64,000 nucleotides of DNA from Alcanivorax sp. DSM 26293 (GTDB taxonomy: Bacteria; Pseudomonadota; Gammaproteobacteria; Pseudomonadales; Alcanivoracaceae): positions 1-64,000 of the forward strand of contig NZ_FNUM01000012.1 in the NCBI RefSeq assembly GCF_900107995.1, in the 5' to 3' direction. This document shows, piece by piece, positions 24,868 through 48,730 of the stretch (the stretch's first letter is position 1; each line of letters starts with the position of its first letter). The notes under the pieces are model-generated. The model searched no databases. It saw only the letters and a list, made by a program, of their open reading frames with translations, and was not told the origin of the DNA. Made by a program: the position numbers and the translations under genes.

Positions 24868-26037
24868 ATGCGCAGCCCGATTACTCTTTTCTTTCTGCTT
24901 GGTCTGTTGTGCTCATCGCTGAGCGCAGCCAATCTGACCCAGGCCCAGAAACAGCAACTCCAGACCCTGTTACCCGGAGTGACGCTGAACGATTCCACTC
25001 TGGAAAAACTCGAGGACGTGTTTTACACCAGAGAGATGCCGGTTCGCAGCCGACTAAAAGCCATCAGCCAGATGGTGGGACTGGACCAGATGCCCGCCGG
25101 CAGCACGCTGAAACGCACTATCTGCATCTGGGACATTGCCGGACGCAACGGACCTGTGTTCAACGCGGCCATGGAACAGCGGGCCCTGGCCGTGGAATAC
25201 GGCATCAATCTGGACATGGTGCCCTATACCAACGAAACCGTGATGGTCGATGAATTCAAGGCCGGTCGTTGCGATGCTGCCCTGATGAGCGGACTGCGTG
25301 CCCGCCAGTTCAACCTGTACAGCGGCAGTGTGGATGCCATCGGCGCCGTGCCTTCCCAGAAGCATATGCAAACCCTGCTTCAGGTCCTGTCGCATCCGAG
25401 GCAGGCCGGCCATATGGTGCAAGGCGACTATGTGGTGATGGGAATCTTCCCGGCGGGCGCCGCGCATATTTTTGTCAACGACAGAAGCATCAGCTCCCTG
25501 GCCAAAGCCGCCGGCAAGCGGGTTGCGGTGCTGGATTATGATGAGACCCAGGCGGAAATGGTGGCGGCCATTGGTGCCACGCCGGTGACCACCGATATCG
25601 TCAGCGCCCCCAACAAGTTCAACAACGGTCAGATTGATATTCTGCCCGCTCCCCTGGTCGCGTATGAACTTCTGGAACTCTACAAAGGCATGAGCCCGGA
25701 TGGCGGTGTGGTGGACTATCCGCTGACGCAGCTGTCCATGCAGTTGATCGGCCGCCTGGACAAGTTTCCCAACGAAGTGGCACAACTGATTCGTGAAGCC
25801 TCCTTTGAGGCCTACCCGGAAGTGATCAAACGCATCGAACAGGAAACCCGCCGGGTTCCTGATCGCTGGATGATTGCCATTCCGGACAAGGACAAGCGGG
25901 AATACGAAGTGATGATGCAGGATGCCCGCGATGCATTGCGCGCCCAGGAATATTACAGCGCCGACATGCTCAGCCTGCAGCGCAAGATCCGCTGCAAGTT
26001 CGATCCCACCCGCTCCGAGTGCAGCATCACTGAATAG
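24868..26037 (+). CDS. Periplasmic TRAP-like solute-binding protein, paralog 1
   Basis: A 389-residue secreted protein; signal peptide at 1-21 (ending LSA-AN). Residues 22-80 are a helical extension, followed by the core shared with four other proteins in this window: KRTICIWDIAGRNGP, FKAGRCDAALMSGLRARQFN, PAGAAHIFVNDR, GKRVAVLDYDETQAEMV, APNKFNNGQIDILPAPLVAY, LELYKGMSPDGGVVDYPL, and a C-terminal pair of cysteines in RCKFDPTRSECS. The core resembles DctP-type two-lobed binding proteins and the paralog at 31541 sits beside a DctM-type permease, which supports the role. It is the first of three tandem copies. The ligand is unknown. Confidence 0.75.
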   Translation: MRSPITLFFLLGLLCSSLSAANLTQAQKQQLQTLLPGVTLNDSTLEKLEDVFYTREMPVRSRLKAISQMVGLDQMPAGSTLKRTICIWDIAGRNGPVFNAAMEQRALAVEYGINLDMVPYTNETVMVDEFKAGRCDAALMSGLRARQFNLYSGSVDAIGAVPSQKHMQTLLQVLSHPRQAGHMVQGDYVVMGIFPAGAAHIFVNDRSISSLAKAAGKRVAVLDYDETQAEMVAAIGATPVTTDIVSAPNKFNNGQIDILPAPLVAYELLELYKGMSPDGGVVDYPLTQLSMQLIGRLDKFPNEVAQLIREASFEAYPEVIKRIEQETRRVPDRWMIAIPDKDKREYEVMMQDARDALRAQEYYSADMLSLQRKIRCKFDPTRSECSITE

Positions 26038-26147
26038 GTAATGACGCGGCGTCATGTTGGCGCCGCGTACAATTGTCATACAGGCGGTAAAACTTCCCTT
26101 CTCTTTCGCATGCTATAAGCATCAAAACGAATGACAAAGGAAACGTC

Positions 26148-27230
26148 ATGGGGAAGTACCGCACATTTTTCGCCGCGCTTGCGGGCTCTGCACTGCTCAC
26201 TTTCGCCAGCACCAGTCAGGCCCTGACACTGACGCCCAAACAGCAGCAGCATCTGGCCGAGGCACGAGAGGAAATGGGACTGGGCCCGGATGAGATGCTC
26301 AAGCGTCACATCTGCTTGTGGGATCTGTCCGGCCGCTCCGGCCCCATTTTCAATGGCGCCACCAACCTGCGCCTGGATTTGCTGCGCTATAAAATTGATA
26401 TCAGCCTGGAAGCCTTCACCAACGAAGGTGCCATGGTCGCGTCATTGAAAAATGGTCAATGTGACGCCGCCCTGATGAGCGGTTTTCGCGCCCGCCAGTT
26501 CAATCGTTTCAGTGGCACCATTGATGCCATCGGCGCTCTGCCTTCACTGAAGCATATGGACATGCTGATGAAGTCCATCGCATTGCCTCAGCTCAGTGAA
26601 AACATGGTAAGCAATAAATATCTGACACTGGCCGTCACACCAGCCGGTGCCGCCTACCTGTTTGTCAATGACAACAAGCTGAATTCGCTGGAGCGGGTTG
26701 CCGGCAAAAAAATCGCCGTACTGGATTTTGATCCCGGCCAGTCGAAGATGGTTGCCCAGATCGGCGCCACCCCCGTGGCCACCACGCTTGCCACCGCCCC
26801 CAACCAGTTCAACAACGGTAGCGTGGACGTACTGCCCGCCCCCCTGGTTGCCTATCAGGTGCTGGAACTTTACAAGGGCATGGAGCCCGACGGCGGCATC
26901 GTTGACTACCCCATCGTGCAGCTCACCGCCCAGCTGATCGGCCATACCGATCGCTTCCCGCCGGCGTTCGCCGCTGTCATTCGTGAAGTGGCCGCCGACA
27001 GCTTTTCCTCTATCCAGAAGGCACTGGAAAAAGAAGCGGGCAACATCCCGGAAAAGTGGTGGATTCAGGTAGACCATGGCGAAAAACAGGAATACGACAG
27101 CATGATGCGTGCCGCCCGCATGAAACTCCGGGAAAGCGGGTACTACGACGCCACCATGTTGAGAATCATGAAGCGTATCCGCTGCAAGCTGGACCCCCTT
27201 CGCCCGGAGTGCAGCCAGGAGACGGAATAA
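26148..27230 (+). CDS. Periplasmic TRAP-like solute-binding protein, paralog 2
   Basis: A 360-residue secreted protein with a signal peptide at about 1-25 (SQA-LT) and a shorter helical extension (26-52) than paralogs 1 and 3. The core is the most divergent of the set: RHICLWDLSGRSGP, LKNGQCDAALMSGFRARQFN, PAGAAYLFVNDN, GKKIAVLDFDPGQSKMV, APNQFNNGSVDVLPAPLVAY, ending RCKLDPLRPECS. The conserved acidic pair of the YTNE segment is AFTNE here. An AAGGAAA site precedes the start. It is 110 bases after paralog 1, long enough for its own promoter. Confidence 0.75.
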   Translation: MGKYRTFFAALAGSALLTFASTSQALTLTPKQQQHLAEAREEMGLGPDEMLKRHICLWDLSGRSGPIFNGATNLRLDLLRYKIDISLEAFTNEGAMVASLKNGQCDAALMSGFRARQFNRFSGTIDAIGALPSLKHMDMLMKSIALPQLSENMVSNKYLTLAVTPAGAAYLFVNDNKLNSLERVAGKKIAVLDFDPGQSKMVAQIGATPVATTLATAPNQFNNGSVDVLPAPLVAYQVLELYKGMEPDGGIVDYPIVQLTAQLIGHTDRFPPAFAAVIREVAADSFSSIQKALEKEAGNIPEKWWIQVDHGEKQEYDSMMRAARMKLRESGYYDATMLRIMKRIRCKLDPLRPECSQETE

Positions 27231-27260
27231 CTCTCACCCAGCCCCCTCAGTTGGCATCGC

Positions 27261-27282
27261 GGCCAGCCACCCCGGCTGGCCA
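27261..27282. other. GC-rich hairpin between paralogs 2 and 3
   Basis: GGCCAGCC and GGCTGGCC form a stem. No T run follows, so it may be a stability or attenuation element. Confidence 0.5.
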
Positions 27283-27374
27283 GCCAGCGACTCACCGGTC
27301 ACGACTGTCACAATGGGCTATCAATCTGAAGTTGTCGCTTCGGAATCAAACAAGAAAATGCCCATGGAGGCCCC

Positions 27375-28550
27375 GTGACATTCTTTCGCCATCTGCTCAT
27401 TCTCCCACTGCTGATTGGCGCTTTCTCCGCCAACGCAGACAACGCCCTGAACCTGACGCCGGCGCAACAGGCCGAACTGGAAAAGTTCGCCCCGGGGGTA
27501 TCGCTCACCCCGGAACTGGCTGACAAGCTGCGTGCCATTGCCTACGACCAGGACCGCAGCCTGGACGATCGTATCCAGGCCATGCAGAAAGTGGCTGGCT
27601 TCAGTATGGGCGAACCCCTCAAACGACGTATTTGCATCTGGGATATTGCCGGCCGTGCCGGACCGATCTACAAGGCCGCCGAAGACCAGCGTACCCGCCT
27701 GCTCGAATATGGCGTGGATCTGGATATACAGGCTTACACCAATGAAAGCGTGGTGGCAGAAGATCTGAAAGCCGGCATCTGTGATGCAGCGCTGATGAGC
27801 GGTCTGCGTGGCCGCCTGTTCAACAAGTATACCGGCACCATTGATTCCATCGGCGGTCTGCCCAGCGACGAGCACATGAAGATTCTGCTGCAGGTGATGG
27901 CCAGCCCGAAATCCGCTGACAAGATGGTCAGCGGTGAATATGTCGTTCTGGGTCTCGCGTCTGCCGGCGGCGCCTACGTCTTCGTCAACGACAGGACCAT
28001 CAACACCCTGGCCAATGCTGCAGGCAAGCGGGTCGCGGTACTGGACTATGACCCCACCCAGGCGGAAATGGTGTCGCAGATCGGCGCCACGCCGGTTGCC
28101 TCGGATATCGTCTCTGCCCCCAACAAATTCAACAACGGGGTCGTCGATGTATTGGCTGCGCCGTTGGTGGCCTATGAAATCCTGGAATTGTACAAAGGCA
28201 TGTCACCGGACGGCGGCATCATCAATTATCCGCTGGCGCAGATCACCATGCAGCTGATTGGTCGCAAGGACAAATTCCCCAATGAAGTGGCCCAGCTGGT
28301 GCGCGAAGAGTTCTTCAACAGCTACCACCTGATCAAGGAACGCCTGGACCAGGAAGCGGCCAAGGTGCCCGATCACTGGTGGATCGAAATTCCCGCAGCG
28401 GATAAGCGCGAATACGAAACCATGATGCAGGAAGCCCGCCTGACCCTGCGCGAGAAAGACTATTACGATGCGGACATGCTGACGCTGCAACGCAAGATTC
28501 GCTGCAAACTCAATCCATCGAAAGGGGAATGTGCCAATCCGGTGGAATAA
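27375..28550 (+). CDS. Periplasmic TRAP-like solute-binding protein, paralog 3
   Basis: A 391-residue secreted protein starting at GTG 27375 with GGAGG four bases before it; signal peptide about 1-22 (NA-DNALN). The helical extension (23-82) aligns with paralog 1 (PGVSLTPELADKLRAIAYDQ). Core motifs: KRRICIWDIAGRAGP, LKAGICDAALMSGLRGRLFN, GKRVAVLDYDPTQAEMVSQI, APNKFNNGVVDVLAAPLVAY, LELYKGMSPDGGIINYPL, and RCKLNPSKGECAN at the end. It is closest to paralog 1, suggesting a recent tandem duplication. Confidence 0.75.
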   Translation: MTFFRHLLILPLLIGAFSANADNALNLTPAQQAELEKFAPGVSLTPELADKLRAIAYDQDRSLDDRIQAMQKVAGFSMGEPLKRRICIWDIAGRAGPIYKAAEDQRTRLLEYGVDLDIQAYTNESVVAEDLKAGICDAALMSGLRGRLFNKYTGTIDSIGGLPSDEHMKILLQVMASPKSADKMVSGEYVVLGLASAGGAYVFVNDRTINTLANAAGKRVAVLDYDPTQAEMVSQIGATPVASDIVSAPNKFNNGVVDVLAAPLVAYEILELYKGMSPDGGIINYPLAQITMQLIGRKDKFPNEVAQLVREEFFNSYHLIKERLDQEAAKVPDHWWIEIPAADKREYETMMQEARLTLREKDYYDADMLTLQRKIRCKLNPSKGECANPVE

Positions 28551-28576
28551 AGAATAGCTTCAAGTACTGGCTGCAA

Positions 28577-28614
28577 CGCGGGCAGGGTCGTGTCGGAATA
28601 GCTCCCTGCCCGCG
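28577..28614. other. Perfect hairpin after paralog 3
   Basis: CGCGGGCAGGG pairs with CCCTGCCCGCG across a 16-base loop, 26 bases after the stop codon. It has no T run. It carries the same CGCGGGCA motif found inside the repeats at 2301-2466 and 40468-40620. Confidence 0.6.
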
Positions 28615-28675
28615 AGATTGACTTCGAACCCGCGCTGGAGTGTCGCTCGCAGCGCGATTCGGACCTTGGCATTAA

Positions 28676-28845
28676 TGTAGGAGCACCTCTTGAGGTGCGA
28701 ACCGAGCGTAGCGAGGCAAAAGAGGGTGGTCGTCAGCCGTTCTTTCTGGGACCTGTAGAGCTCTGAAATGCCTGATCGCCCTGCGGTCGATGTCCGCGCA
28801 AGCGCGGTTCGCGGCTCAAGCGCCGCTCCTACAGCCGCTTCGTAG
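28676..28845. repeat. REP-like inverted repeat between paralog 3 and the ABC1 kinase gene
   Basis: TGTAGGAGCACCTCTTGAGG at 28676-28695 faces GGCTCAAGCGCCGCTCCTAC at 28813-28832, then the GCCGCTTCGTAG tail. The interior shares GACCTGTAGAGC and CTGATCGCCCTGCGGTCGAT with the copy at 7124-7287. The gap 28551-28912 holds only this and the hairpin before it. Confidence 0.75.
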
Positions 28846-28912
28846 TGAACATGGAGTTCAGGGAGCTTTTTGGCCTTTCCCAATCCAACCGGCTATGTAG
28901 TTGTAGCTGCCT

Positions 28913-30274
28913 TCAGTGCAGCAACCCGCCCGGCATATCATCAATTGCCCCGAACATATCCACACGGTTATCACTGAACATATCCATTTCCGGCGCCAGC
29001 ACCTGCACATAGCGATCGAAATAAAGGAATTGCTTGAGCAACAGGGCAAATTCGCGCGGGAAGCGAATCCCGTGGCCTTCACCAATCTTCACCAGATCCA
29101 TGAGCAGGCGGTTCACTTCCTTGTCATTGCGATCCGCCTGCACCAGAGCGGACGGGTCAACCTGGCCCAGTGCCCCTTGCAGGCTTTCGATATCCCGTGC
29201 CAGGGCGGCCACATCCACTTCCTCGCGGGTCATGCCGATGATCGCCATGGCCTCCGCCATTTGACGGATATCGCCTCGGCCGATGGCGTCAAAGAACTTG
29301 GCCATGCCGTCCCAGGCTTCTCGACGGATTCGACCGACAATCCCGAAGTCGATGAATCCGACCCGACCGTCCTCCAGTAACATCAAATTGCCAGCATGCA
29401 CATCCGCATGGAAGAAATCGCACAGCATCAGGCTGGAAAACCAGGTATTCAGGGCAGAGATCAGGGTTTCCGCCGGATCATCGGTATATTGCCGCAGGAC
29501 GTTCATGTCCGTCAGAGGCACCCCGAAGAAGCGCTCCATGGTCAGCACCTTGCCGGTGGTGTGGGTCATGACCGGGTCCGGTGCTACCGCTGACGTGTTG
29601 CCGGTATCTCGCAGGAACGCATTGAATGCCTGCAGGTTATGGGCTTCCTTGATGAAGTCGCACTCCTCCAGCATGCCGGCCTGCAACTCCTCGATTACCC
29701 CGGAAATGGCAGAGCGGGACAGCCCGGGAGCCAGACGTTCGGTAACCCGGGCCGCAAAGTAGAGGAAATTGAAATCGGTCAGCAGCACATTTCGCACACC
29801 GGGGCGCTGAACCTTGATCACCACATCCTGTCCGTTTTTGAGCTTCGCCGCATGAACTTGCGCAATGGACGCACTGGCCAATGGCTTGGGATCCACGGAC
29901 TGATAAAGCGACTCCAGGGGTTTCCCCAGCTCTTTCTCGATCGTTTCACGGATATAGTGAAACGGCAGTGCCGGGGTACGGTCCAGACAGCGCTGGAATT
30001 CCACCACATACTCTTCCGGGAAAATCGATGGGGAACTGGCAATAAACTGGCCCAGCTTGATGTACGTGGTACCCAGGGATTCAAAGGTAGTACGCAGCAA
30101 AGCCGGTACTGGCGGGCGATCGCCGAGCATCCAGTTAAGCCCCTGGCGCCCCACCACCCCGAGGGTTTCCAGGATGCGCAGGCCGCCACGGGCAGTATTC
30201 ATCGCCAGAGCGACGCCACTTCTCTCGCCCGCCAGCCAGCTTTTCATGTCTTTGATATCGGTATGATCAGTCAT
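28913..30274 (-). CDS. ABC1 (UbiB/ADCK-like) atypical kinase
   Basis: A 453-residue protein of the AarF/ABC1 kinase-like family. Family marks: KLGQFIASSP (the KxGQ motif), the Ala-rich loop PLASASIAQVHAA in place of a glycine loop, the lysine of VVIKVQRPGV, HADVHAGNLML and IDFGIVG. Family members support ubiquinone or other lipid metabolism as ATPases. This copy is not in the ubiEJB operon and lacks the two C-terminal membrane helices of UbiB, so it is probably a paralog (some are fused to or act with lipid pathways). It is transcribed against the binding-protein genes on both sides. Confidence 0.85.
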   Translation of the reverse strand: MTDHTDIKDMKSWLAGERSGVALAMNTARGGLRILETLGVVGRQGLNWMLGDRPPVPALLRTTFESLGTTYIKLGQFIASSPSIFPEEYVVEFQRCLDRTPALPFHYIRETIEKELGKPLESLYQSVDPKPLASASIAQVHAAKLKNGQDVVIKVQRPGVRNVLLTDFNFLYFAARVTERLAPGLSRSAISGVIEELQAGMLEECDFIKEAHNLQAFNAFLRDTGNTSAVAPDPVMTHTTGKVLTMERFFGVPLTDMNVLRQYTDDPAETLISALNTWFSSLMLCDFFHADVHAGNLMLLEDGRVGFIDFGIVGRIRREAWDGMAKFFDAIGRGDIRQMAEAMAIIGMTREEVDVAALARDIESLQGALGQVDPSALVQADRNDKEVNRLLMDLVKIGEGHGIRFPREFALLLKQFLYFDRYVQVLAPEMDMFSDNRVDMFGAIDDMPGGLLH

Positions 30275-30449
30275 AATAAAGTCTTACTTTCCCGGTGGGT
30301 GCGCAGCACAACGTTACGTATTCCATCATAAAGCAAATTTATTGTTTGTAATTGCTTGCAGGCTTTTTTGTAATTGCCACTTGTGCCAATTGGCGGACTT
30401 TCGTACCTTTGATCGCGCTAATCCGAGAACAATAACAAGGAGCTTTCGA

Positions 30450-31478
30450 ATGGGTTCTCTGACCTTGACAAAAATGCTACGACATTCCCGTCTGGCCCTG
30501 GTAGGGGGCGCCATCATGGCTCTGCAAGGCTGTGGCGTCATCTACAAGACAACCGGGGACGTGCTGATCAGCTTCGGCCGCTCCGAGATGCTTCCCTACA
30601 TGCTGACCTTCGACGATGTGCGCATGGCCTGTGTCACCGGCGAAGCGCAGACCCCGCTGCTGATGGCATTTGAACGCGTCGGCTCGCATCCCGAGAAGCT
30701 GGGCGCCATGGTTTACACCACTGCCGCCACCTGTGCAGAACAGATTGCCATTGACGCCGAGCTCCGCTACATGCGTGGCGTCAAGGATGGCAATGTGAAT
30801 GAAGCCCAGGACGCACGTATTGAACAGAAACGCTGGTCGGCCATTGCGGCCAAGCGCCAGTACACCGCCTACCAGAACATGAAGACCGCCTTCGGTGAAC
30901 AGAAAGAAGGCGAATGTCCCAAGCTGAAGACCGACTTCGACGAGCTGGTGTGGATGATCGGTAATATCTCCGGCGTCCAGGCCCTGCTCAATGATGGCGC
31001 ATCTGATGGGGCGGTGGGTGTCCCCCGCGATATCGCCGCCAAGGTTGAGCGCAACATGAAGTGCCTGGAGAACGACAAGTGGTGGGGTGTACCCCGTGGT
31101 ACCCGTGCCGCGGTCTGGAACCTGCTGCCGATGCTGGCTCCGCCCAACGCCGAGCCGTGGAAGGAACTGGAAGCCTCTGCCAAGGCCGGCTTCGATGGCG
31201 GTGTTCGACTGGGTAGCGCCCTTTACGCCATGAGCGCCTTCAGCAAGGGCGATGACGAGCGTATGCGCAAGGCCATCCGTGACTTTGCCGCCAACGACCA
31301 GAATCTGGATCCGGAGTACTCCATGATGGATGCCATTGCCGGCTTCATTGTCACGGGTATTTCCGACCGGGAATGGACAGAAAATACCGGTAAGCGCACC
31401 CCCATTGGTGGGCTCGGGACATTCTGGGATGACGCCGCCAAATCCGGGCCGGCGATCAATATTGACGATTTGCTGTAA
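30450..31478 (+). CDS. Lipoprotein, probable TatT-like component of the TRAP-type system
   Basis: A 342-residue lipoprotein. The start at 30450 has AAGGAG seven bases before it; the signal peptide ends in the lipobox LQGC, giving a lipidated Cys at residue 28, so the protein is membrane-tethered. The mature part is almost all helix and rich in Ala, with segments such as ELVWMIGNISGVQALLND and LGSALYAMSAFSKGDDERMR that recall the helical-repeat TatT (TRAP T-component) lipoproteins known from Treponema. It directly precedes a binding-protein gene and the DctM-type permease. The TatT call is inference from size, lipobox, helicity and context; no domain search was possible. Confidence 0.5.
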   Translation: MGSLTLTKMLRHSRLALVGGAIMALQGCGVIYKTTGDVLISFGRSEMLPYMLTFDDVRMACVTGEAQTPLLMAFERVGSHPEKLGAMVYTTAATCAEQIAIDAELRYMRGVKDGNVNEAQDARIEQKRWSAIAAKRQYTAYQNMKTAFGEQKEGECPKLKTDFDELVWMIGNISGVQALLNDGASDGAVGVPRDIAAKVERNMKCLENDKWWGVPRGTRAAVWNLLPMLAPPNAEPWKELEASAKAGFDGGVRLGSALYAMSAFSKGDDERMRKAIRDFAANDQNLDPEYSMMDAIAGFIVTGISDREWTENTGKRTPIGGLGTFWDDAAKSGPAINIDDLL

Positions 31479-31486
31479 GCCTGTTT

Positions 31487-31507
31487 GCGGCCCCTTGGGG
31501 CCGCTTT
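31487..31507 (+). terminator. Hairpin with short T tail after the lipoprotein gene
   Basis: GCGGCCCC-TT-GGGGCCGC is a perfect eight-pair stem followed by only TTT, so it may be a leaky terminator between the lipoprotein gene and paralog 4. Confidence 0.55.
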
Positions 31508-31540
31508 GAATTAGATTAAGAAGTAACCAGGAGACATGCC

Positions 31541-32554
31541 ATGCGCTATTTGAAGGCGTTTACCACAGCAGCGACTGCTGCACTTGCACTGACAATCAGC
31601 CCCGCCCAGGCCGCCGAGGAGCGGTCCATGTGCGTGTTCGATATCATTGGCGCCAACGGTGATATCTACAACATCATGAAGGACTACAAGACCGCCGCTC
31701 TTGGCTGGGGTGTAGACCTGGAGCTGAAGCCCTACACGGATGAGAAAATCGCCGCCGAGGACCTGAAAGCCGGCCAGTGTGATGCTGCCGTCCTGACAGG
31801 CATCCGGGGCCGCCAATTCAATAATTATACCGGCAGCCTGGATTCCATCGGGGCCATCCCCTCCTATGACGCCATGCGCACCGTGGTCACTGTTCTGGCC
31901 AGCGGCAACCCTTCCATCAACGAGAAGCTGGTTTCCGGCCCCTATGAAGTGGGTGGTATTGCCCCCATGGGTGCGGCCTACCTGTTCGTGAAAGATCGCA
32001 CCATCGATACCGTGGGCGAGCTCTCCGGCAAATCCATCGCCGTACTGGAATACGACAGCGCCCAGGCCAGCATGGCCTCCCGCGTAGGCATGTCTCCGGT
32101 GATGTCTGATATCACCAACTTCTCCGGCCGTTTCAACAACGGTTCCGTGGATATCTGCTTCGCTCCCATTGCGGCCTACTCTGCACTGGAACTGTACAAG
32201 GGCATGCAGCCGGATGGTGGCATGATCGATTACGTACTGGGGCAATTGACGGCCCAGGTGATCCTCAAAAAAGATCGCTTCCCGGACGGCTTTGCTGACA
32301 GCTCCCGCAAATACATGCTGGGTCAGTTCGATCGCGCCATGACCGTGATCGAGAACGCCAACAACGAAGTCGACAAGAAATGGTGGATCCGCATCCCCGA
32401 GGCCGACAAGCTGCGTTATGACGAAATGATGCGCGAGGCGCGTATCGCCCTGACCAACGACGGTGTTTACAGCAAGGACATGATGTCCCTGCTGCGCAAG
32501 GTGCGCTGCAAGGAAGAACCTTCCCGCGCCGAATGCGTTAATCCGGTCGAGTAA
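31541..32554 (+). CDS. Periplasmic TRAP-like solute-binding protein, paralog 4
   Basis: A 337-residue secreted protein without the N-terminal helical extension of paralogs 1-3: the signal peptide (1-24, AQA-AEE) leads straight into SMCVFDIIGANGDIY. Shared core: LKAGQCDAAVLTGIRGRQFN, MGAAYLFVKDRTID, GKSIAVLEYDSAQASM, FSGRFNNGSVDICFAPIAAY, LELYKGMQPDGGMIDYVL, and RCKEEPSRAECVN at the end. It is the copy physically linked to the permease and so its most likely partner. It is closest to paralog 5 (VFDI, EYD, ITNFS). A CAGGAG site precedes the start. The ligand is unknown. Confidence 0.8.
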   Translation: MRYLKAFTTAATAALALTISPAQAAEERSMCVFDIIGANGDIYNIMKDYKTAALGWGVDLELKPYTDEKIAAEDLKAGQCDAAVLTGIRGRQFNNYTGSLDSIGAIPSYDAMRTVVTVLASGNPSINEKLVSGPYEVGGIAPMGAAYLFVKDRTIDTVGELSGKSIAVLEYDSAQASMASRVGMSPVMSDITNFSGRFNNGSVDICFAPIAAYSALELYKGMQPDGGMIDYVLGQLTAQVILKKDRFPDGFADSSRKYMLGQFDRAMTVIENANNEVDKKWWIRIPEADKLRYDEMMREARIALTNDGVYSKDMMSLLRKVRCKEEPSRAECVNPVE

Positions 32555-32569
32555 GCGCAGTACTGACAG

Positions 32570-32593
32570 CGGGGCCCCAGTGGCCCCGTTTTT
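32570..32593 (+). terminator. Terminator after paralog 4
   Basis: GGGGCC-CCAGT-GGCCCC followed by GTTTTT, 16 bases past the stop. It would limit read-through into the permease gene. Confidence 0.75.
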
Positions 32594-32742
32594 CCCTAGC
32601 AACCTAATTTCTGTCACCCGGCGTCGCTCTGCCGGGTAGTCAAGGTGTTTACACTGCCATAGAATGCGGAGAACAAGGCCTGAGGGCCCGCGGGTAGCCT
32701 TTTCCCCGTAATCCAGGCGGTATAACAATAACCGGGTGCACA

Positions 32743-35073
32743 ATGGATAAAACTTCTTCTATGAAAATGGCAAACCGTTCTGTCGGTGAATGGTTGTCAT
32801 CGTTACCTACCCTGATTCTCCTGTTGCTGACGGTTTTTCTCGCATCTGGGGAAGTGATTCACTCCCAACTCCTGAAGATTGGCGAAAATACCTGGGAAGG
32901 CTATTTCCAGTTGCGGGGGGCCGGCATTCTTCAGGAGCCGACCTGTAACCCGGACGCCAATCTTGACGATCAACTGGAAGCCGCCGTCGCCAGGAAAAAA
33001 CAACAGATGGCGGACGACCCACTGGCCGGGATGTTCGGCACCGAGGTCAACGAGGACGCTCTGCGCCAATCCCTGGAAGCTTCCCAGCAAATCTGCCGTG
33101 AGAAGTGGGCCACCTACAACATGGTCCAGGAGAAGGTCACGCCCGGCGTGATTGCTTTCCGGACCCTGGAAGGCGGCGTAGCAAAGGTGGTCACCTCCCT
33201 GGGCCACTACAAACGGTTGCTGCTGTGTATTCTGGTGATTATCTGTGCCGCCACCGCCACCCTGACGCGCCACCATATTTCCCTGCGCCCGGCGCAAACC
33301 CGCAAGGACCATTTCGTATCCAGCCTTGGCCAGCTTTCCGCCAACGTGATGCTGCTGATGTCCGCCTGGGTTTATCGTGGCGAGGAAGTGAGCGCCATGG
33401 CTGACGGTGTACAGGTGAACCATTTCTACCTGCACCAATTCTGGATTGCCGGCTTTGCCCTGCTCTCCCTGGCCGCCCTCTGGCAGCTGATCAAACCGCC
33501 CAAGGATCTTGAGGAAGGTGGCAGCTGGGGCAAGGCCCTGCTGACCATTCCGCTGTACAGCTTCATGTGTATCACTGCCGGCATCCAGTTCGTCAGCCAG
33601 GGCTACTACCACGGGATCAGTGTCTACCTGGGCATGATGATGGAACTGTCTACCCTGTTCCTGAGCCTGGCCCTGTACATCTGGATCGGTATGATGCTGC
33701 GCCAGACCAAGATGGCCCACCTGGTGTTTGATGTACTGCGTCCGTGGAAGATGTCCCCGGAACTGATGTGTTTCGTGGTACTCGCAGTGACCGCGATCCC
33801 CACCGCCTACACCGGGGCATCCGGTATCTTCGTTATCGCGGCCGGTGCCACTATTTACAACGAACTGATCCGTGCCGGCGCACGCAAGCAACTGGCTCTG
33901 GCCGCTACCGCCATGTCCGGCTCCATGGGTGTGGTACTGCGTCCTTGTCTGCTGGTCGTGATCATTGCTGCCCTGAACAACTCGGTCACCACCGATGAAC
34001 TGTTCACCTCCGGCCTGAAGATTTTCGGTCTGTCACTGCTTCTGTTCTTTATCTACAGCCAGTTTGCCCGCACCGAAGCGGCCCGAATCGCGCCTTTCTC
34101 CGAGGCCGTACCGGCCAGCATCAAGCGCCTGGTACCGCTGCTGCCCTATGTGATCATCATGGGCACCGTCGTGGTATTCTTCCGTGACCTGCTGGATACC
34201 GAACTCAACGAAAACTACGCACCGATCATCCTGCCGGTGATGCTGCTTGCCATTCTCATCTTTGAGAAACTGAGCAATAAATCCGTGCATCTTTTCACCC
34301 TCGTATTGGTGCCTCTGCTGGCTTACTCCCTGTACAACCTGGTGGGTATCAATGCCGCGCTGGATGCGGGCAACATCCCCACCGGCACCTCTGCCGAGGA
34401 CCTTGAGGCCTTGTTCTGGGGCCTGCTGTGGAGAAACTTGCTGCTCGGCGCCGCGGTCGTGCTCTACTACGTGTTGAAACAACCCGAAGAAGATCCCGAT
34501 TACCGTGAGGAGCCCGGCGTCGGCGACAAGCTGGAAAACTCCCTGCGTTTTGCCACCAATGAAACCACCGGCCACATTGGCGCCCTGCTCATGCTGATGG
34601 CACTGTCTGTGAGTGTAGGCGGCATCATCGAGCGCTCCGGTGTGATGGAGAACCTGCCGGAAACCTTTGCCAACGTCTGGCTGGCCATGACCCTGCTGGT
34701 GGTGACCATGGTGATTATCGGCATGATCATGGACCCCTACGGGGCTGTGATCCTGGTCAACGCCACGATCGCCCAGATTGCCTTCGACAATGGCATCGCA
34801 CCATTACACTTCTGGATGATTACCCTGGTGGCCTTCGAACTGGGTTATCTGTCACCGCCGGTGGCATTGAACCACTTGTTAACACGACAAGTCGTGGGTG
34901 AGGCCGAAGTGGAGTCCGCCAAGCTCAAGGAAGGCAGCTTCTTCCGTCGCTATGAGAAGTTCCTGCTTCCCATCGCGGTCATGCTGACGGCCCTGCTGCT
35001 GGTCTCCTACGTACCGTTGCTGTCCGATACAGTGCACGAGTACATGTTCCAGAAGATCGAGATCGGCGGCTAA
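32743..35073 (+). CDS. TRAP-type permease, fused small (DctQ-like) and large (DctM-like) membrane subunits
   Basis: A 776-residue polytopic inner-membrane protein. TM1 at about 20-36 is followed by a periplasmic loop (37-150) with two cysteines (C68, C118). Residues 155-320 hold about five membrane segments in the place of a DctQ subunit. From 325 on it matches DctM: TAYTGASGIFVIAAGATIYN and SGSMGVVLRPCLLVV correspond to the conserved GxxSGSxxA and A-GTLG-x-PPS loops, and the end IAPLHFWMITLVAFELGYLS plus PPVALN is the DctM C-terminal signature. DctM alone is about 425 residues, so this is a fusion with an extra periplasmic loop. It should import an organic solute with Na+ or H+. The start at 32743 has only a weak ribosome site. 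Confidence 0.8.
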   Translation: MDKTSSMKMANRSVGEWLSSLPTLILLLLTVFLASGEVIHSQLLKIGENTWEGYFQLRGAGILQEPTCNPDANLDDQLEAAVARKKQQMADDPLAGMFGTEVNEDALRQSLEASQQICREKWATYNMVQEKVTPGVIAFRTLEGGVAKVVTSLGHYKRLLLCILVIICAATATLTRHHISLRPAQTRKDHFVSSLGQLSANVMLLMSAWVYRGEEVSAMADGVQVNHFYLHQFWIAGFALLSLAALWQLIKPPKDLEEGGSWGKALLTIPLYSFMCITAGIQFVSQGYYHGISVYLGMMMELSTLFLSLALYIWIGMMLRQTKMAHLVFDVLRPWKMSPELMCFVVLAVTAIPTAYTGASGIFVIAAGATIYNELIRAGARKQLALAATAMSGSMGVVLRPCLLVVIIAALNNSVTTDELFTSGLKIFGLSLLLFFIYSQFARTEAARIAPFSEAVPASIKRLVPLLPYVIIMGTVVVFFRDLLDTELNENYAPIILPVMLLAILIFEKLSNKSVHLFTLVLVPLLAYSLYNLVGINAALDAGNIPTGTSAEDLEALFWGLLWRNLLLGAAVVLYYVLKQPEEDPDYREEPGVGDKLENSLRFATNETTGHIGALLMLMALSVSVGGIIERSGVMENLPETFANVWLAMTLLVVTMVIIGMIMDPYGAVILVNATIAQIAFDNGIAPLHFWMITLVAFELGYLSPPVALNHLLTRQVVGEAEVESAKLKEGSFFRRYEKFLLPIAVMLTALLLVSYVPLLSDTVHEYMFQKIEIGG

Positions 35074-40467: not shown

Positions 40468-40620
40468 TCGAGTTGAAAGTTAAAAGTTCAAAGTTAAAAA
40501 GTGCGCGATGGGTTGATTTTGAGCGGCCATGCCCGCGCCATTAGCGTTAATCGCGGGCACACCATTCCTGCCTTTGACAACTTAGTCCGCGTTTCAACTT
40601 TAAACTTTGAACTTTCAACT
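40468..40620. repeat. Paired iterated words (GTTGAAAGTTAAAAGTTCAAAG type)
   Basis: GAGTTGAAAGTTAAAAGTTC around 40470-40489 is mirrored by GAACTTTCAACTACGC at 40609-40624. Inside, GCCCGCG (40531) pairs with CGCGGGC (40552). The right copy includes the stop codon of the RND permease gene. Same words as 2301-2466. Confidence 0.8.
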
Positions 40621-43600
40621 ACGCTGCTCAGACGTATCCCGGTCGCTACTCTGATCCTGCCGACCCGCCTCCCAGGCAGAAGCCAGGACGGCATCCTGGT
40701 AGGGGTTGCTGGTCACCCACCAGGCCGTCATGCGACCCCGCTCATAGGCCATGTCCACGCTGTCCTCCTCCGAGGCCTCCGGCGCCCGCCAGCGGGCCAG
40801 GCTACGCTGAACCAGGCTGCGCACATCATGGCTCACCACCAACAGACAGGGCACCAGCAGCAGGCTGACCAGGGTGGCAAACAACACGCCAAACGCCAGG
40901 GACACGGCCATGGGAATCAGGAAACGGGCCTGCACACTGGTCTCCAGCATCAGCGGCGCCACCCCGGCAAAGGTGGTCATGGAGGTCAGCATCACGGGCC
41001 GCAGGCGGCTGCTGACGCCTTCGATCACCGCATCACGAAGACGCATGCCATGGCTTCGCAAGGTATTGATGGCATCAATCAGTACCAGGTTGTCGTTGAC
41101 CACCACGCCACTCACCGCGATGACCCCCACCAGCGACCACAATGTCAGGCTGTAACCCAGCAGGAAGTGCCCCAGGAAGGCCCCCACCATGCCGAAGGGG
41201 ATTGCCGCCATCACCAGTAGCGGCTGGCCATAGCCGCCAAACAGCACGGTGAGCAGGAAAAATATGGCAGCCAGGGCAATCAGGTAGCTGATCGACAGAT
41301 GATCCAGGAAGTCCTGGATCGCCGCCTGCTTGCCGGCCACCGTCCAGCCCGCCTGGGAATCGGCGGACTCCATGGGGGCCAACACCTGTTGCTGCAGTGC
41401 CGCCATCACCTGGGCCGGTGACGTCACATGTTCATCTACGAAAGCACTGATGGTCGCACTGCGGCGGCCATCGTAATGGCTGATCATGGCCGGCACCTGG
41501 CGTCGCTGCAGGTCGGCCACTGCCGCCAGCACAGTGATCTCCCCATCCGGCAGTTGCACCGGCAACCGTTCCAGGTCACTGATATGGCGACTGTCGCGGC
41601 TGGCCAGACGCAACATCACCGGCACTTCCTGATCCTGTTCGAACCAGCGATCCAGCTCGATACCGTGGAACGCATTGCGGATCTGCAGTCCCAGCTGCTC
41701 CACCCGCAGGCCCGCCAGTTTGCCTTCTTCCCGCAGGCCGATATCAACCAGGGTGCGACGGGAAGACAGGTTGTTGGCCACTTCATGGACCCCCTCCATG
41801 TTCGCCAGGGCCTGCGCCGTCTGCGCACTCAAACGTTGCAAGGTGGCCAGATCCGGGTGGAACAGATTGACGTGAATATCCGGCTTCACCTGCATCAGGC
41901 TGGCATGGAATTTGACCGACAGGGCATCGGCAATGGGGCCATGCTGCCCCCGCCACAGACTGGCCAGCTCCCGGGGAGACAAGGCGCTGGTATCTCCGCC
42001 AATGGCCAGGGTCACCCGTACCCGGAAGCGGGCACCCGGGTCACGGGCATTGGAGGTTTTCTGGCGCACCCCCTGCTCGGCAAACACCGCATCCACGGTG
42101 ACCGGCTGCTGGTCAGCCTGCAATTGCGCTGATAGCTTGCGGGCGGAGCCTTCCAGGGCCTGCACCTCGCGCAGCAGCCGCGCCTCGCCGGTGCCCCGGG
42201 GGAACACCACTTCCGCCATCACCCGGTCGCCCTCCACCCGGGAAAACAACACCATGGTCAGCCAGCCGCTGTTGACCAGGGCGCAGCAGAAAATAAACAG
42301 CCCTACAAACACCACCACCAGCACATACCGCCAGCGCAGGGCCCGTCGCAGCAGTGGCCGGGCCCGGTATTCCAGCCAGCGATCCAGCCGGCTATTGATG
42401 CGCGTGGAGAGTTGCTCGGACTTTCGCCAGATCCCCCGGGCGGGGCGGTCATAGCTGAGGTGAGAGGGCAAAATCCACAGGGACTCCACCAAGGACAGCA
42501 CCAGAATGGCCATGGACACAATGGGGATCACCCGCATCAGCGCCCCTTCCGGGCCAGGCAGGAACAGCAGCGGCGCAAAGGCAATCAGGGTGGTCAGCAC
42601 CGCAAACAGGATCGGTCGCGACACCCGCTGGGCGCCGGCAATGGCGGCCTCCTGACCGGCCATGCCACCCTGGCGGCGCTGGTGATCAATACTCTCGCCG
42701 ACGATCACCGCATCGTCGACCACAATGCCCAGCACCAGGATAAAGGCGAACAGGGAGATGGTGTTGAAGGATTCGCCCAGCACCGGCAGCAAGGCACAGG
42801 CACCCAGCATGCAGACCGGAATCCCCAGTGCCACCCAACCAGCCAGACGCAGGGTGAGAAACACCCCCAGCATCAGGGTCAGCAACACCAGCCCCTGCAG
42901 CGCATTGCGCCACAACAGATGGGAGCGTTCGCGAAACTGGGCCGCATCGTCACTCCACACCTGCAAGGCGACGCCCGGCGGTAACTGCGCCTGCTGCAGA
43001 TAGCCGCTCACCGCCCCGGCCACGTCCAGCACGTTCTGGTCGCCGACCCGGTAGATATCCAGCGCTACCGCCGGCCGGCCGTCCAGCCAGGCGGCCTGAC
43101 TGTCTCGGGAGAAACCATCCTCAATGCGGGCCACGTCGCCGAGACGCAACAGATCGCCCTGCTCGGACTGGCGAATCACCAACTGTTGATAGGCGCTGGC
43201 CTCTCCCGGTTGCTGGCCGGTCTGTAGCAGCCAGTCACCCCGGTCGCTGCGCAACAGCCCCCCGGCAACCCGCTCCACGCTTTCACGGGCGGCGGCGGCC
43301 ATACCTTCCAGGGTGAGCTGATAGCGGTACAGATCATCCCGGGCCACGGTCAGCGCCATTTCCCGTTCCGGCAGGTTTTCGATATCCACACTGGATACCG
43401 CATCATGATTGAGCAGCTGCCGGCGCACCTGATGAGCCAGTTGATAGAGATCCTGGCGGGACAGGCTGCCACTGAGCAGCAGCCGCACCACCCGGTTTCG
43501 CACAATCAGTTCCTGCACCCGGGGGCGCTCGGCGTCGCCGGGCAAGGTATCAAGGGCTTCCAGGCGAGTGCGGATCTGCTCCAGCACGGCGCGGGTATCA

Positions 43601-43899
43601 TGCCCCTTGAGCACATCCAGCTGCACCGAACACAACCCCTCCCGGGCTTCACTGATCAGTTCGGTGCCCCCTTCCACATCGTCGATGGCGGTTTCCACTG
43701 GCGTGCAGACCAGGGCCTCCACACTTTCCGGTGTGGCCTGGGGCCAGGCCACATAGATACCGATGCGGTCCAGCGGCACGTTGGGCAGGGTTTCCTGGCG
43801 GGTGTGGGGGATGGCCATCAGGCCGGCCAACAGCAGGGTGATCATCAGCAGGTTGGCCACCGCGCTGTTGCGGGCGAACCAGGCAATACTGCGGTTCAC
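40615..43899 (-). CDS. RND-family efflux permease (AcrB/MdtB-like)
   Basis: A 1094-residue proton-driven exporter with the RND layout: TM1 at about 10-30, a large periplasmic porter domain, TM2-6, a second loop and TM7-12. The proton-relay Asp pair is in LGIVVDDAVIVGES. The N-terminus RNSAVANLLMI and TRQETLPNVPLDRIGIYVAW resemble the HAE/nodulation-type branch rather than metal pumps. A 40-residue polar tail follows TM12. It overlaps the adaptor gene by four bases. No outer-membrane factor gene is nearby, so a TolC-like protein encoded elsewhere is presumably shared. In this operon it probably exports the product of the upstream enzymes. Confidence 0.93.
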   Translation of the reverse strand: MNRSIAWFARNSAVANLLMITLLLAGLMAIPHTRQETLPNVPLDRIGIYVAWPQATPESVEALVCTPVETAIDDVEGGTELISEAREGLCSVQLDVLKGHDTRAVLEQIRTRLEALDTLPGDAERPRVQELIVRNRVVRLLLSGSLSRQDLYQLAHQVRRQLLNHDAVSSVDIENLPEREMALTVARDDLYRYQLTLEGMAAAARESVERVAGGLLRSDRGDWLLQTGQQPGEASAYQQLVIRQSEQGDLLRLGDVARIEDGFSRDSQAAWLDGRPAVALDIYRVGDQNVLDVAGAVSGYLQQAQLPPGVALQVWSDDAAQFRERSHLLWRNALQGLVLLTLMLGVFLTLRLAGWVALGIPVCMLGACALLPVLGESFNTISLFAFILVLGIVVDDAVIVGESIDHQRRQGGMAGQEAAIAGAQRVSRPILFAVLTTLIAFAPLLFLPGPEGALMRVIPIVSMAILVLSLVESLWILPSHLSYDRPARGIWRKSEQLSTRINSRLDRWLEYRARPLLRRALRWRYVLVVVFVGLFIFCCALVNSGWLTMVLFSRVEGDRVMAEVVFPRGTGEARLLREVQALEGSARKLSAQLQADQQPVTVDAVFAEQGVRQKTSNARDPGARFRVRVTLAIGGDTSALSPRELASLWRGQHGPIADALSVKFHASLMQVKPDIHVNLFHPDLATLQRLSAQTAQALANMEGVHEVANNLSSRRTLVDIGLREEGKLAGLRVEQLGLQIRNAFHGIELDRWFEQDQEVPVMLRLASRDSRHISDLERLPVQLPDGEITVLAAVADLQRRQVPAMISHYDGRRSATISAFVDEHVTSPAQVMAALQQQVLAPMESADSQAGWTVAGKQAAIQDFLDHLSISYLIALAAIFFLLTVLFGGYGQPLLVMAAIPFGMVGAFLGHFLLGYSLTLWSLVGVIAVSGVVVNDNLVLIDAINTLRSHGMRLRDAVIEGVSSRLRPVMLTSMTTFAGVAPLMLETSVQARFLIPMAVSLAFGVLFATLVSLLLVPCLLVVSHDVRSLVQRSLARWRAPEASEEDSVDMAYERGRMTAWWVTSNPYQDAVLASAWEAGRQDQSSDRDTSEQRS

Positions 43900-45059
43900 A
43901 GCGCTGTCTCAGTGGCAGAACGATCCGCCAGTCCGCTGGCAGGAGGACGGGGGTCGATACGCATGCCCTCCAGCAGCTGCAAGTCTCCGGCCAGCACTAC
44001 CCGGGAGGAAGCGGTCACACCGTCGTGCAGATACAGGGAGTCATCATCGTGGTGCAGTATCGCCACGGATTGACGTCGCAACCGCTTGTCCTCATCCAGG
44101 ACCCAGACAGCGTTCTCGCCAGCCTGGGCTGCCCGGGGCAGCACCGCCACATTTTTCGTCGGCGCGCCGCGCAGCTCCGCCTGCACCAGCACCCCGGGCT
44201 CCAGGGGCAAGCCGTCCTCGCTATTGGTGACCTGAACGATCAGGTGCATCATGCGGTTCTTGTTCAGGCCACCTTCGCGGCGCACCACCCTGCCCGACCA
44301 CTGGCCGTCCCGGCCGGCAAAGCGGCCACGCAGGGTAACGTTCACCGGCTCCAGGGTGCCTTCATCACCGGGCATGATGCCCAGCAGTGCCAGCCACTCA
44401 TCGCGAACCGGCAGCCGTACCTCCACCTGATCTTCCTGATACAAGCGAGCCAGAATGCTGCCGGCCTGTATCTGTTGTCCGGCCATGGCCTGGACGGCTT
44501 TCAGGCGACCACTGATCGGCGCCACCAGCTCCGTCTGTTCCTGATTCCGTTGGGCCTGGCGCAAGCCGGCACGGGCCGAGGCAAGACGGCTGTTGGCTTC
44601 GTCCAGTTGCGGTTCAAAGCGACCCAGCGCCGAGGAACGCTTGGCGGATCCCGAGACCCGTGCCCGCGCCCGGGTTTCCTCCAGATGCAGCCGCGCCGCA
44701 TGGACGGCGTTCTGCTGGGCAGTAACGTCCAGCGCAAAGGGCTCCGGATCCAGCTTCAGTAATACCTCGCCGGCCGTCACCCGCCCCCCGTCTGCCAGTA
44801 GCGGCGATACTTCCTGCACCCGGCCGGACACTTCCAGACTCAGCGGCAATTCATGACGGGCACGCACCAGTCCTTGACTGTGCACCGGAATGACCACGTC
44901 CTTCCATTCCACTTGCCAGGAGTCCAGAGCCAGAATCGTCTCTTCGCTTTTCACCGCCGGCGGTGACGGCGGCACCAGATACAGGGCCGCCACCGCCAAC
45001 GCCATGGCCAGGGCGGCCAGCAGAGCCACCAACGCGCGCAGACTCACAATCCGTTTCAT
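43896..45059 (-). CDS. RND periplasmic adaptor subunit
   Basis: A 387-residue membrane fusion protein: N-terminal membrane anchor (about 8-29), a lipoyl half-motif LSGRVQEVSPLL-like stretch at 77-100, a short helical hairpin (110-165), the second lipoyl half VAPISGRLKAVQAMAGQQ, beta-barrel and membrane-proximal domains. The helical hairpin is short, as in adaptors of the HAE1/NFE type. Both ends overlap neighbours by four bases. Confidence 0.92.
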   Translation of the reverse strand: MKRIVSLRALVALLAALAMALAVAALYLVPPSPPAVKSEETILALDSWQVEWKDVVIPVHSQGLVRARHELPLSLEVSGRVQEVSPLLADGGRVTAGEVLLKLDPEPFALDVTAQQNAVHAARLHLEETRARARVSGSAKRSSALGRFEPQLDEANSRLASARAGLRQAQRNQEQTELVAPISGRLKAVQAMAGQQIQAGSILARLYQEDQVEVRLPVRDEWLALLGIMPGDEGTLEPVNVTLRGRFAGRDGQWSGRVVRREGGLNKNRMMHLIVQVTNSEDGLPLEPGVLVQAELRGAPTKNVAVLPRAAQAGENAVWVLDEDKRLRRQSVAILHHDDDSLYLHDGVTASSRVVLAGDLQLLEGMRIDPRPPASGLADRSATETAL

Positions 45060-46015
45060 GCCGTCACTCCCAGTCCCTCAACCCAACATTGCAGACATTC
45101 GCGCACCGCTGACTCCGGGGCGCCCAGGGACGGGTGCAGCTTCAGCGCCAGGCTCAAGCTGCCATTCACAATGATCATGCCGTTGGCTACCGGATGGGTG
45201 GGACTCCCGGGGCCACAGCAGGCGAATACCGTGTCGGGAGCCAGGCCTCCTGAAACGAAATCCATCTGCCACTCTCCCAGGTTGGAGAAGGAGCCGCCGT
45301 GGCGGGCACCGTTGAGCAGACGGCCACATAGCCAGTCCACCCCCCGCTGGCCAATCAGCCGACCAATTCGGGCAAGGTGCCAGTAGCGCCAGTGAATATT
45401 GGCTTTCAGATAGCGACGAATGGTGTGGTCCAGATGAGTCAGCGAATCGTCACTGTCCACCGTCATGTAAAAAGCACTGGACAGATTCATATCCGGCTTC
45501 GCCATGGGCACCACGCCGCGCATGTTCACCGGGAAGCACCAGCTGATGGGCACTGCATGGGTCATCAGGGTTTGCACCACGGCCCGATGCAGGGCCTGCA
45601 ACAACAGGCTGTTGAGAGAGACCTGCAGCGCCTCGGCCCGCTGCCGCAGGGCAAGGGTTTGCCGTGGCGTCAGCCATTCCACCAGGGGCGCATCCGCCTG
45701 CTTTTCGGCCGTGGAGGTGAAGGCCCGCCAGGGGGGGGATTGCGGCTGGCGTCGCTCCGGCCGTGCCTGCCAGCGACGCCAGAACGCGGGCGGCCGGGTC
45801 TGGCGACTGAGGGGCATGGGCGGCTGACGCACGCCCATGCGCTTGAGGGATTCGGCGATGCCGCCCACCCCGTCATGGTCACGGTGCCGCAACGCCACGG
45901 TATGGCGCTTCCCAGACGCCGGATGGATGAAGATAAACTCAATCCGGTCATCAATACCGAGCCGGGCACGGGCTCGGTACCACATGCCGATATAGTCGGT
46001 TGCACTGGCACTCAC
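45056..46015 (-). CDS. Condensation / wax-ester-synthase-like acyltransferase
   Basis: A 319-residue protein of the CoA-dependent acyltransferase fold. The catalytic pattern HxxxDG is read as H44-D48-G49 in RHRDHDGVGG; later WCFPVNMRGVV and GSFSNLGEW resemble the conserved PVNxR and SN-loop motifs of WS/DGAT and condensation domains. It is about 130 residues shorter than WS/DGAT enzymes, mostly at the N-terminus, so the acceptor side may differ. It would join an acyl group to an alcohol or amine. The fold call is by motif only. Confidence 0.65.
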   Translation of the reverse strand: MSASATDYIGMWYRARARLGIDDRIEFIFIHPASGKRHTVALRHRDHDGVGGIAESLKRMGVRQPPMPLSRQTRPPAFWRRWQARPERRQPQSPPWRAFTSTAEKQADAPLVEWLTPRQTLALRQRAEALQVSLNSLLLQALHRAVVQTLMTHAVPISWCFPVNMRGVVPMAKPDMNLSSAFYMTVDSDDSLTHLDHTIRRYLKANIHWRYWHLARIGRLIGQRGVDWLCGRLLNGARHGGSFSNLGEWQMDFVSGGLAPDTVFACCGPGSPTHPVANGMIIVNGSLSLALKLHPSLGAPESAVRECLQCWVEGLGVTA

Positions 46016-48716: not shown

Positions 48717-48730
48717 GGTCACCCCGGTTT

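Follow-up and report, generated by a model that had tools for sequence, protein, structure and literature searches.

A candidate divergent TPAT-like TRAP importer with a fused permease and multiple AdeT-type binding proteins in Alcanivorax

The 64,000-nucleotide stretch of Alcanivorax sp. DSM 26293 that was analysed here (contig NZ_FNUM01000012.1, positions 1 to 64,000; referred to as the window) carries a gene cluster at 24868–35073, which, as judged from sequences and predicted structures, very probably has an architecture like that of a tetratricopeptide repeat-protein associated TRAP transporter (TPAT), i.e. a tripartite ATP-independent periplasmic (TRAP) transporter that includes a T-component lipoprotein. 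The plus strand encodes four AdeT-type TRAP solute-binding proteins, namely SBP1 (24868–26037; a secreted protein of 389 aa with additional N-terminal residues), SBP2 (26148–27230; 360 aa, the most diverged paralog), SBP3 (27375–28550; 391 aa) and SBP4 (31541–32554; 337 aa). SBP4 represents the core copy, which adjoins the genes of a candidate T-component lipoprotein of 342 aa (30450–31478, plus strand) and of a fused DctQM-type TRAP permease of 776 aa (32743–35073, plus strand). All genes named in this region by a first-pass annotation of the bare sequence were found where it had placed them. It had counted four paralogs, which is correct for the cluster, and had overlooked a fifth (SBP5, 330 aa) at 50834–51826 on the plus strand, two further AdeT copies outside the window and, within the cluster itself, a gene for an ABC1/UbiB-like kinase.

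SBP1 to SBP4 all match the Pfam family PF19582 (AdeT1_2) with E-values ranging from 3e-77 to 4e-91 (SBP1, 1.3e-87; SBP2, 3.2e-77; SBP3, 2e-88; SBP4, 3.6e-91), and SBP5 likewise scores far above the cut-off (5.6e-89). Mutual identity of SBP1 to SBP4 is 41–58%. The blocks LELYKG-PDGG and CDAA, by which the paralogs had initially been recognized, were found, the first one as LELYKG-x2-PDGG, and the C-terminal cysteine pair was found as well, its actual spacing being RCK-x6-EC rather than RCK-x4-EC. Cysteines C31, C80, C323 and C332 (SBP4 numbering) are invariant in 57/57 aligned homologs, a pattern that is therefore far from chance and suggests two disulphides of putative pairing. The TRAP_S1 model detected SBP1 to SBP4 with E-values of 1.1e-6 to 1.4e-10 (best for SBP2), which is below its cut-off, and PF03480 matched AdeT proteins below cut-off only. 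Profile searches of the PDB returned weak TRAP matches with unrelated rows mixed in (4p1l, E 0.015; 4nn3, E 0.15 with a larger AdeT alignment). Alignment of the AdeT profile to the genome's own canonical TatP by hhalign gave a probability of 94.2% (E 1.2e-7, 190 columns), which assigns AdeT1_2 to the DctP- or TAXI-type binding proteins, and the part of PMC11467057 available to us places AdeT1_2 in a binding-protein clan, nearest to DctP. Membership in a non-transport family, which the first-pass annotation had named as fatal to an importer, was not borne out, AdeT1_2 being a family of binding proteins.

The C-terminal part of the permease, in which DctM signatures had been noticed earlier, indeed matches DctM (PF06808) with 43.1 bits at a cut-off of 23.8, while TIGR00786 scored 62.7 bits, below its cut-off of 268. 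A profile search of the PDB detected IseQM (9pym, E 1.2e-8), and hhalign aligned residues 264–761 with the canonical DctM of this genome (98.9%, E 2.9e-17). An AlphaFold2 model built from 55 sequences (predicted local distance difference test, pLDDT, 87.1; predicted template modelling score, pTM, 0.83) comprises a DctQ-like part (residues ~1–260) with a helical insertion at ~40–150, and a DctM part (~264–760) with inserted helices at 514–577. When aligned with VIA-align, the model spans fused SiaQM/IseQM structures end to end, from residue 7 to 775, over 522–529 residues at 13–16% identity: 8y4w (Z 25.7, 5.4 Å, 524 residues), 9pym (Z 24.9, 4.6 Å, 524 residues), 8thj (Z 24.6, 5.7 Å, 522 residues), 8thi (Z 24.3, 5.5 Å, 526 residues) and 7qe5 (Z 20.8, 5.5 Å, 529 residues). 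In comparison, the lone DctM chain 7qha_B covers only permease residues 266–776, i.e. 398 residues versus 524. Foldseek concurs (9pym, E 1.7e-9). A DctM-type permease is thus indicated by sequence and by predicted fold, the DctQ part by predicted fold. Of note, in many Alcanivoracaceae a second fused permease gene directly follows the first (loci L019, L020, L021, L026, L027 and others) and some carry another one elsewhere, whereas this genome has one. At L061:10001-12330 and G016:C33:75112-77441 the reading frame of the permease is split, reflecting a frameshift or an assembly error.

The listed open reading frame of the lipoprotein begins with TTG at 30342. ATG at 30450 is the better fit and was preferred, because a GGAG motif lies in front of it and translation from there yields the lipobox LQGC with Gly at position +2. 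The clear lipobox reported before is confirmed by the homologs: the lipid Cys is kept in 48/49 of them and never followed by Asp, and four other cysteines are invariant (49/49). The TatT model PF16811 and all other Pfam and NCBIfam models gave no match to the lipoprotein, a PDB hmmsearch with 16 sequences returned as best row only a designed helical repeat (E 0.012), and profile-profile comparison with 11 TatT proteins by hhalign yielded a probability of 3.8%. The AlphaFold2 model (49 sequences; pLDDT 89.1, pTM 0.83) is all helical and was aligned to 984 PDB chains with VIA-align. The top four rows are all T-components, namely 8g52 of the TPAT family (Z 17.6, 3.3 Å, 231 residues), TatT in 4di3 (Z 17.4, 3.8 Å, 248 residues) and 3u64 (Z 17.2, 3.7 Å, 244 residues), and BstC in 7t1s (Z 14.2, 4.7 Å, 215 residues), followed by a designed barrel (Z 11.9). 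Chance Z values for helical proteins reach ~13, and the first three rows are clearly higher. The comparison with TatT that the first-pass annotation had proposed hence failed at the level of sequence models and succeeded at the level of the fold. Since the best fold matches are all T-components while sequence methods fail, we read the lipoprotein as a T-component family that has diverged beyond their reach; structural convergence is a possible alternative. As the protein lies outside PF16811, the system is filed as TPAT-like.

To describe linkage, we used 73 named loci, the best of at least 553 relatives retrieved by a contig search with the permease alignment, a sample biased to close kin. 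The order lipoprotein-AdeT-permease is kept in 51 of these loci and thus represents a recurrent cassette. In 8/73 loci the permease has neither partner upstream, four of these being stand-alone permease copies of Alcanivoracaceae, and in 4/73 the contig end is too close to judge. The lipoprotein is encoded in 19/20 fetched relative loci, L033 being the one without it. Of 37 relatives, 26 have AdeT, and exactly these 26 also have the permease. In a class survey of 370 genomes AdeT was found in six (5/273 genera), again together with the permease; five of the six also encode the lipoprotein, and in the remaining one (G223) the contig ends within the permease. The genome survey proposed at the outset accordingly returned no AdeT without permease in either sample. 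Canonical TatT occurs in 28/37 relatives, in a pattern that differs from that of AdeT and permease. Carriers of the permease among the named loci include Alcanivorax, Alloalcanivorax, Oleispira, Thalassolituus, Bacterioplanes, Marinobacter, Oleiphilus, Alkanindiges, Acinetobacter, Limnobacter and a Methyloprofundus metagenome-assembled genome (MAG); most of these genera are hydrocarbon degraders. A rhomboid-family gene lies between the divergent lipoprotein and the permease in Acinetobacter/Alkanindiges (L098:9263-9829 and L108:9089-9697, both plus strand), and another one lies beside the canonical TatT gene of the present organism (L111:10085-10906, minus strand).

Expansion of the binding proteins was addressed by placing 68 AdeT proteins, taken from 25/73 named loci and this genome, in a tree whose long branches, above all those of L103 and L095, may be misplaced. 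AdeT proteins of the SBP4 type occur in all sampled families, and both solo copies of the present genome are among them. SBP1, SBP2, SBP3 and SBP5 form a well-supported sister group encountered only in Alcanivoracaceae and the gammaproteobacterial MAG L069; the SBP1 clade is almost confined to Alcanivoracaceae, and the stem of SBP2 is long (0.89). SBP5 is preceded at a distance of 113 bp by a gene for an AraC-family protein (49698–50720, plus strand; PF12833, E 8.6e-18; PF12625, E 1e-16), which is likely its regulator. The whole genome encodes seven AdeT copies, five in the window and two on other contigs, versus one fused permease. Such numbers could also mean that AdeT proteins are mainly periplasmic lipid carriers or sensors, most copies of which never meet a permease, like the orphan Bug proteins of tripartite tricarboxylate transporters, which outnumber TctAB in Bordetella (PMC5812351, in the part used here). 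Counts of 1 to 10 AdeT per genome in the 12 genomes reached through named loci, and AdeT-lipoprotein pairs without a nearby permease (L176, L177), would fit this explanation as well. We regard it as quite unlikely, given that none of the surveyed genomes has AdeT without the permease and that the core AdeT copy shares a cassette with it. Three Acinetobacter genomes have 7–10 AdeT copies along with lipoprotein and permease, and in Acinetobacter junii (L139, G406:C3:1895000-1911000) five AdeT genes stand in tandem, away from the lipoprotein and permease genes.

What the system might carry was approached through the residue equivalent to Arg-147 of SiaP. According to the accessible part of PMC4646407, this residue binds the substrate carboxylate and is kept in 5943/6142 DctP proteins (96.8%). 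In 57 AdeT proteins the column holds Ala (44), Ser (9), Val (2), Pro (1) or Ile (1), and Arg in 0/57. TPAT binding proteins mostly have Ala at this position (PMC5812351, in excerpt), and therefore absence of the Arg does not strictly disqualify AdeT as a TRAP binding protein; the genome's own TatP has a Trp aligned here. As the position is never Arg in AdeT and is mostly Ala in TPAT binding proteins as well, we consider hydrophobic cargo. Provided that the architecture is TPAT-like, a hydrophobic or hydrocarbon-derived cargo is somewhat the better guess. An ordinary organic-acid TRAP importer, in which AdeT binds carboxylates via other residues and the lipoprotein does no more than provide a scaffold, is unlikely in our view. 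Permease and binding proteins are TRAP-like, AdeT has invariant Arg residues of its own (e.g. R91 and R256), the SiaP R147A variant still closes and binds ligand weakly (PMC4646407, same part), and alkane oxidation also yields fatty acids and dicarboxylates, all of which would suit such an importer. It is disfavoured by the absence of the Arg-147 equivalent from all 57 AdeT proteins, as opposed to its near-universal retention in DctP, and by the T-component fold of the lipoprotein.

Gene neighbourhoods provide a link to hydrocarbons. One solo AdeT gene of this genome (L013:8228-9247) has a divergent AraC regulator gene upstream and, 56 bp downstream in its own orientation, a gene for an alkane monooxygenase. 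AdeT is directly followed by alkB in at least 6/26 AdeT-bearing relatives, with gaps of 34–71 bp between the matched ranges; these six belong to one genus and hence count as one event. The same order is found in both Alkanindiges genomes, i.e. in 2/12 genomes searched, with gaps of 335 and 380 bp. Matches to 8f6t (E 2.3e-84 for the gene of this genome, and 4e-114) establish the AlkB identity of the adjacent genes. By a rough estimate, 0.002 such pairs would be expected by chance in this genome and 0.0008 in Alkanindiges, pairs having been chosen by eye from match lists that may miss solo copies. In G023, the whole lipoprotein-AdeT-permease cassette adjoins genes for an AraC regulator, a Fer2/FAD reductase and an AlkB-like hydroxylase (8f6t, E 4.5e-45), and in Limnobacter AdeT is preceded by genes for an AraC regulator, a GMC oxidoreductase and a flavin monooxygenase-esterase fusion.

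AdeT1 and AdeT2 of Acinetobacter baumannii have been named as parts of a resistance-nodulation-division (RND) drug efflux pump, and AdeT proteins in general might thus serve efflux. This is highly improbable. Neither Pfam nor NCBIfam detected a HlyD/RND_mfp adaptor domain in SBP1 to SBP4, whereas the true RND adaptor encoded nearby matches TIGR01730 with E 7.2e-36, and AdeT distribution tracks the TRAP permease. In the portion of PMC7687900 that we could draw on, wild-type AdeT1, whose expression was verified, conferred no resistance on E. coli; it is this result, together with the missing adaptor domain, that makes an efflux role of AdeT1 unlikely. The same portion cites an earlier resistance report in favour of efflux, describes a fourfold increase of the erythromycin minimal inhibitory concentration upon propionylation of AdeT1 at Lys280 and includes a section headed 'AdeT1 forms an active efflux pump in E. 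coli', known to us by its heading. A true RND operon 5.5 kb downstream of the cluster (40615–45059) would also suit such a role. The question was judged from AdeT relatives, the A. baumannii genome itself lying outside the sample.

On balance, we lean towards a divergent TPAT-like TRAP importer with hydrophobic or hydrocarbon-derived cargo, in which several AdeT proteins would serve one permease. The TPAT-like importer with QM fusion and multiplied binding proteins that had been proposed from the letters is upheld by the DctM match, the proximity of AdeT1_2 to DctP, the T-component fold and the co-occurrence of the parts. Several observations weigh against it. The profile comparison proposed for the 776-residue protein succeeded for DctM, while sequence searches for DctQ found no match in it; given the fused QM alignment over residues 7–775, this half is supported by fold, not by sequence. 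The lipoprotein is without detectable sequence relation to TatT, and Foldseek returned no match to its model with E < 0.001 (3u64, E 0.40, probability 0.93). In 10/73 loci, from Acinetobacter, Alkanindiges, Oleiphilus and a Marinobacter MAG that has its AdeT upstream of the lipoprotein, lipoprotein and permease have no AdeT between them. The locus list is also biased to well-sampled hydrocarbon degraders, and most solo AdeT copies seen, among those listed (L157–L160 being covered in part), have uninformative neighbours such as FKBP and others, and no hydrocarbon genes. Finally, a proteomic study of Marinobacter TT1, in the part available, reports TRAP proteins higher with Corexit than with hexadecane without naming AdeT, which, if anything, argues against a role restricted to alkanes. 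The accessible parts of SK2 proteomics (PMC6850023) and of oil metatranscriptomics (PMC7284936) contain nothing on these genes.

In E. coli, lipoproteins without Asp after the lipid Cys are sorted to the outer membrane. By this rule, the lipoprotein, which lacks such an Asp, would reside there. A substrate of hydrophobic or amphipathic nature might enter the central pore of the lipoprotein and be handed to one of several AdeT proteins, which would deliver it to the single fused and presumably ion-driven permease. The likeliest substrates would be hydrocarbons or their first oxidation products (an alkane, an alcohol, a fatty acid or a similar lipid), and duplication of AdeT could broaden the substrate range of the one permease.

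Further features of the region stand apart from this proposal. Inside the cluster, the minus strand carries the ABC1/UbiB-like atypical kinase gene (28913–30274; PF03109, E 2.2e-58), which is present in 35/73 named loci and may be merely a conserved neighbour of the transporter genes. A GC-rich hairpin with seven G-C pairs (31487–31504, plus strand) separates the lipoprotein gene from SBP4; it is a possible attenuator or RNA end and could give the downstream genes a different expression. Terminator-like sites were about as frequent as in shuffled sequence (11 versus 10.2, not above chance as a class) and promoter sites were less frequent (3 versus 5.8), and the operon borders therefore rest on gene spacing only. 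Five genes on the minus strand (40615–48839) form a group that resembles an operon for the synthesis and export of a lipid or acyl conjugate; they encode an RND permease, an RND adaptor, a PapA_C-like protein (below cut-off), a protein of 363 aa without any match and a GH3-family protein.

Most genetic determinants of hydrocarbon uptake are still unknown, as stated in the part of PMC5989066 at hand, and the AdeT system offers a defined, testable gene set for passage of alkanes and oily molecules through the envelope. Judging from this evidence, proteins that go by the name of AdeT drug-efflux proteins probably bind substrates for TRAP-type importers, which would be a correction for AdeT1/AdeT2, screened as efflux or resistance genes in clinical papers. 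A candidate T-component family undetected by sequence models is a further addition. In the portions of the open-licence literature searched, no paper was found that ties AdeT to a TRAP permease gene or T-component, the nearest being the AdeT1_2-DctP resemblance (PMC11467057). As a tentative proposal, which we hold to be somewhat less likely than not, an unrecognised second TPAT class with its own T-component family may constitute the inner-membrane/periplasmic route by which hydrocarbon-degrading Gammaproteobacteria take in hydrocarbons or their initial oxidation products; an interchangeable AdeT set would work on one fused permease, one AdeT would be co-expressed with AlkB, and AdeT1/AdeT2 of Acinetobacter would belong to an importer instead of drug efflux.

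Among the closest known systems is the TPAT of Treponema pallidum (TatT Tp0956, TatP(T) Tp0957, TatQM), with which the cluster shares a T-component lipoprotein, whose model superposes on TatT (Z 17.4, 3.8 Å, 248 residues), a TRAP binding protein mostly without the conserved Arg, and a QM permease. It differs in that the lipoprotein has no detectable sequence relation to TatT and that the binding proteins are AdeT1_2 instead of DctP-model proteins and are multiplied. The organism's own canonical TPAT, encoded on another contig (L111: rhomboid, TatT, TatP, DctQ, DctM), is a system of the same kind, and its DctM and TatP, the latter likewise without the Arg, are distant relatives of the window proteins. 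However, its DctQ and DctM are separate, its TatT matches PF16811 (E 3.3e-85) and its binding protein matches DctP (E 4.6e-39). Because this TPAT exists separately in the same genome, the AdeT-type system would be a second, divergent one. SiaQM and IseQM have the whole-length fold in common with the window permease, which is only 13–16% identical, is longer, contains inserted helices and has other partner proteins. BstABC of Methylococcus capsulatus transports sterols; its BstC is the T-component matched by the lipoprotein model (7t1s, Z 14.2), whereas it is partnered by an RND protein and a binding protein of the phosphonate type, and no TRAP permease is named in the accessible part of PMC10942540. 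AdeT1 and AdeT2 of Acinetobacter belong to the same Pfam family as the window AdeT proteins and have been published as RND membrane fusion proteins (PMC7687900, in part), a role unsupported by the present evidence. AupAB for alkane uptake in Marinobacter resembles the present system in that its envelope genes, known from marine hydrocarbon degraders, are often present in several copies and occur together with alkB (PMC5989066, same part), but it is a different pair of outer and inner membrane proteins, and the terms 'TRAP' and 'lipoprotein' are absent from that paper.

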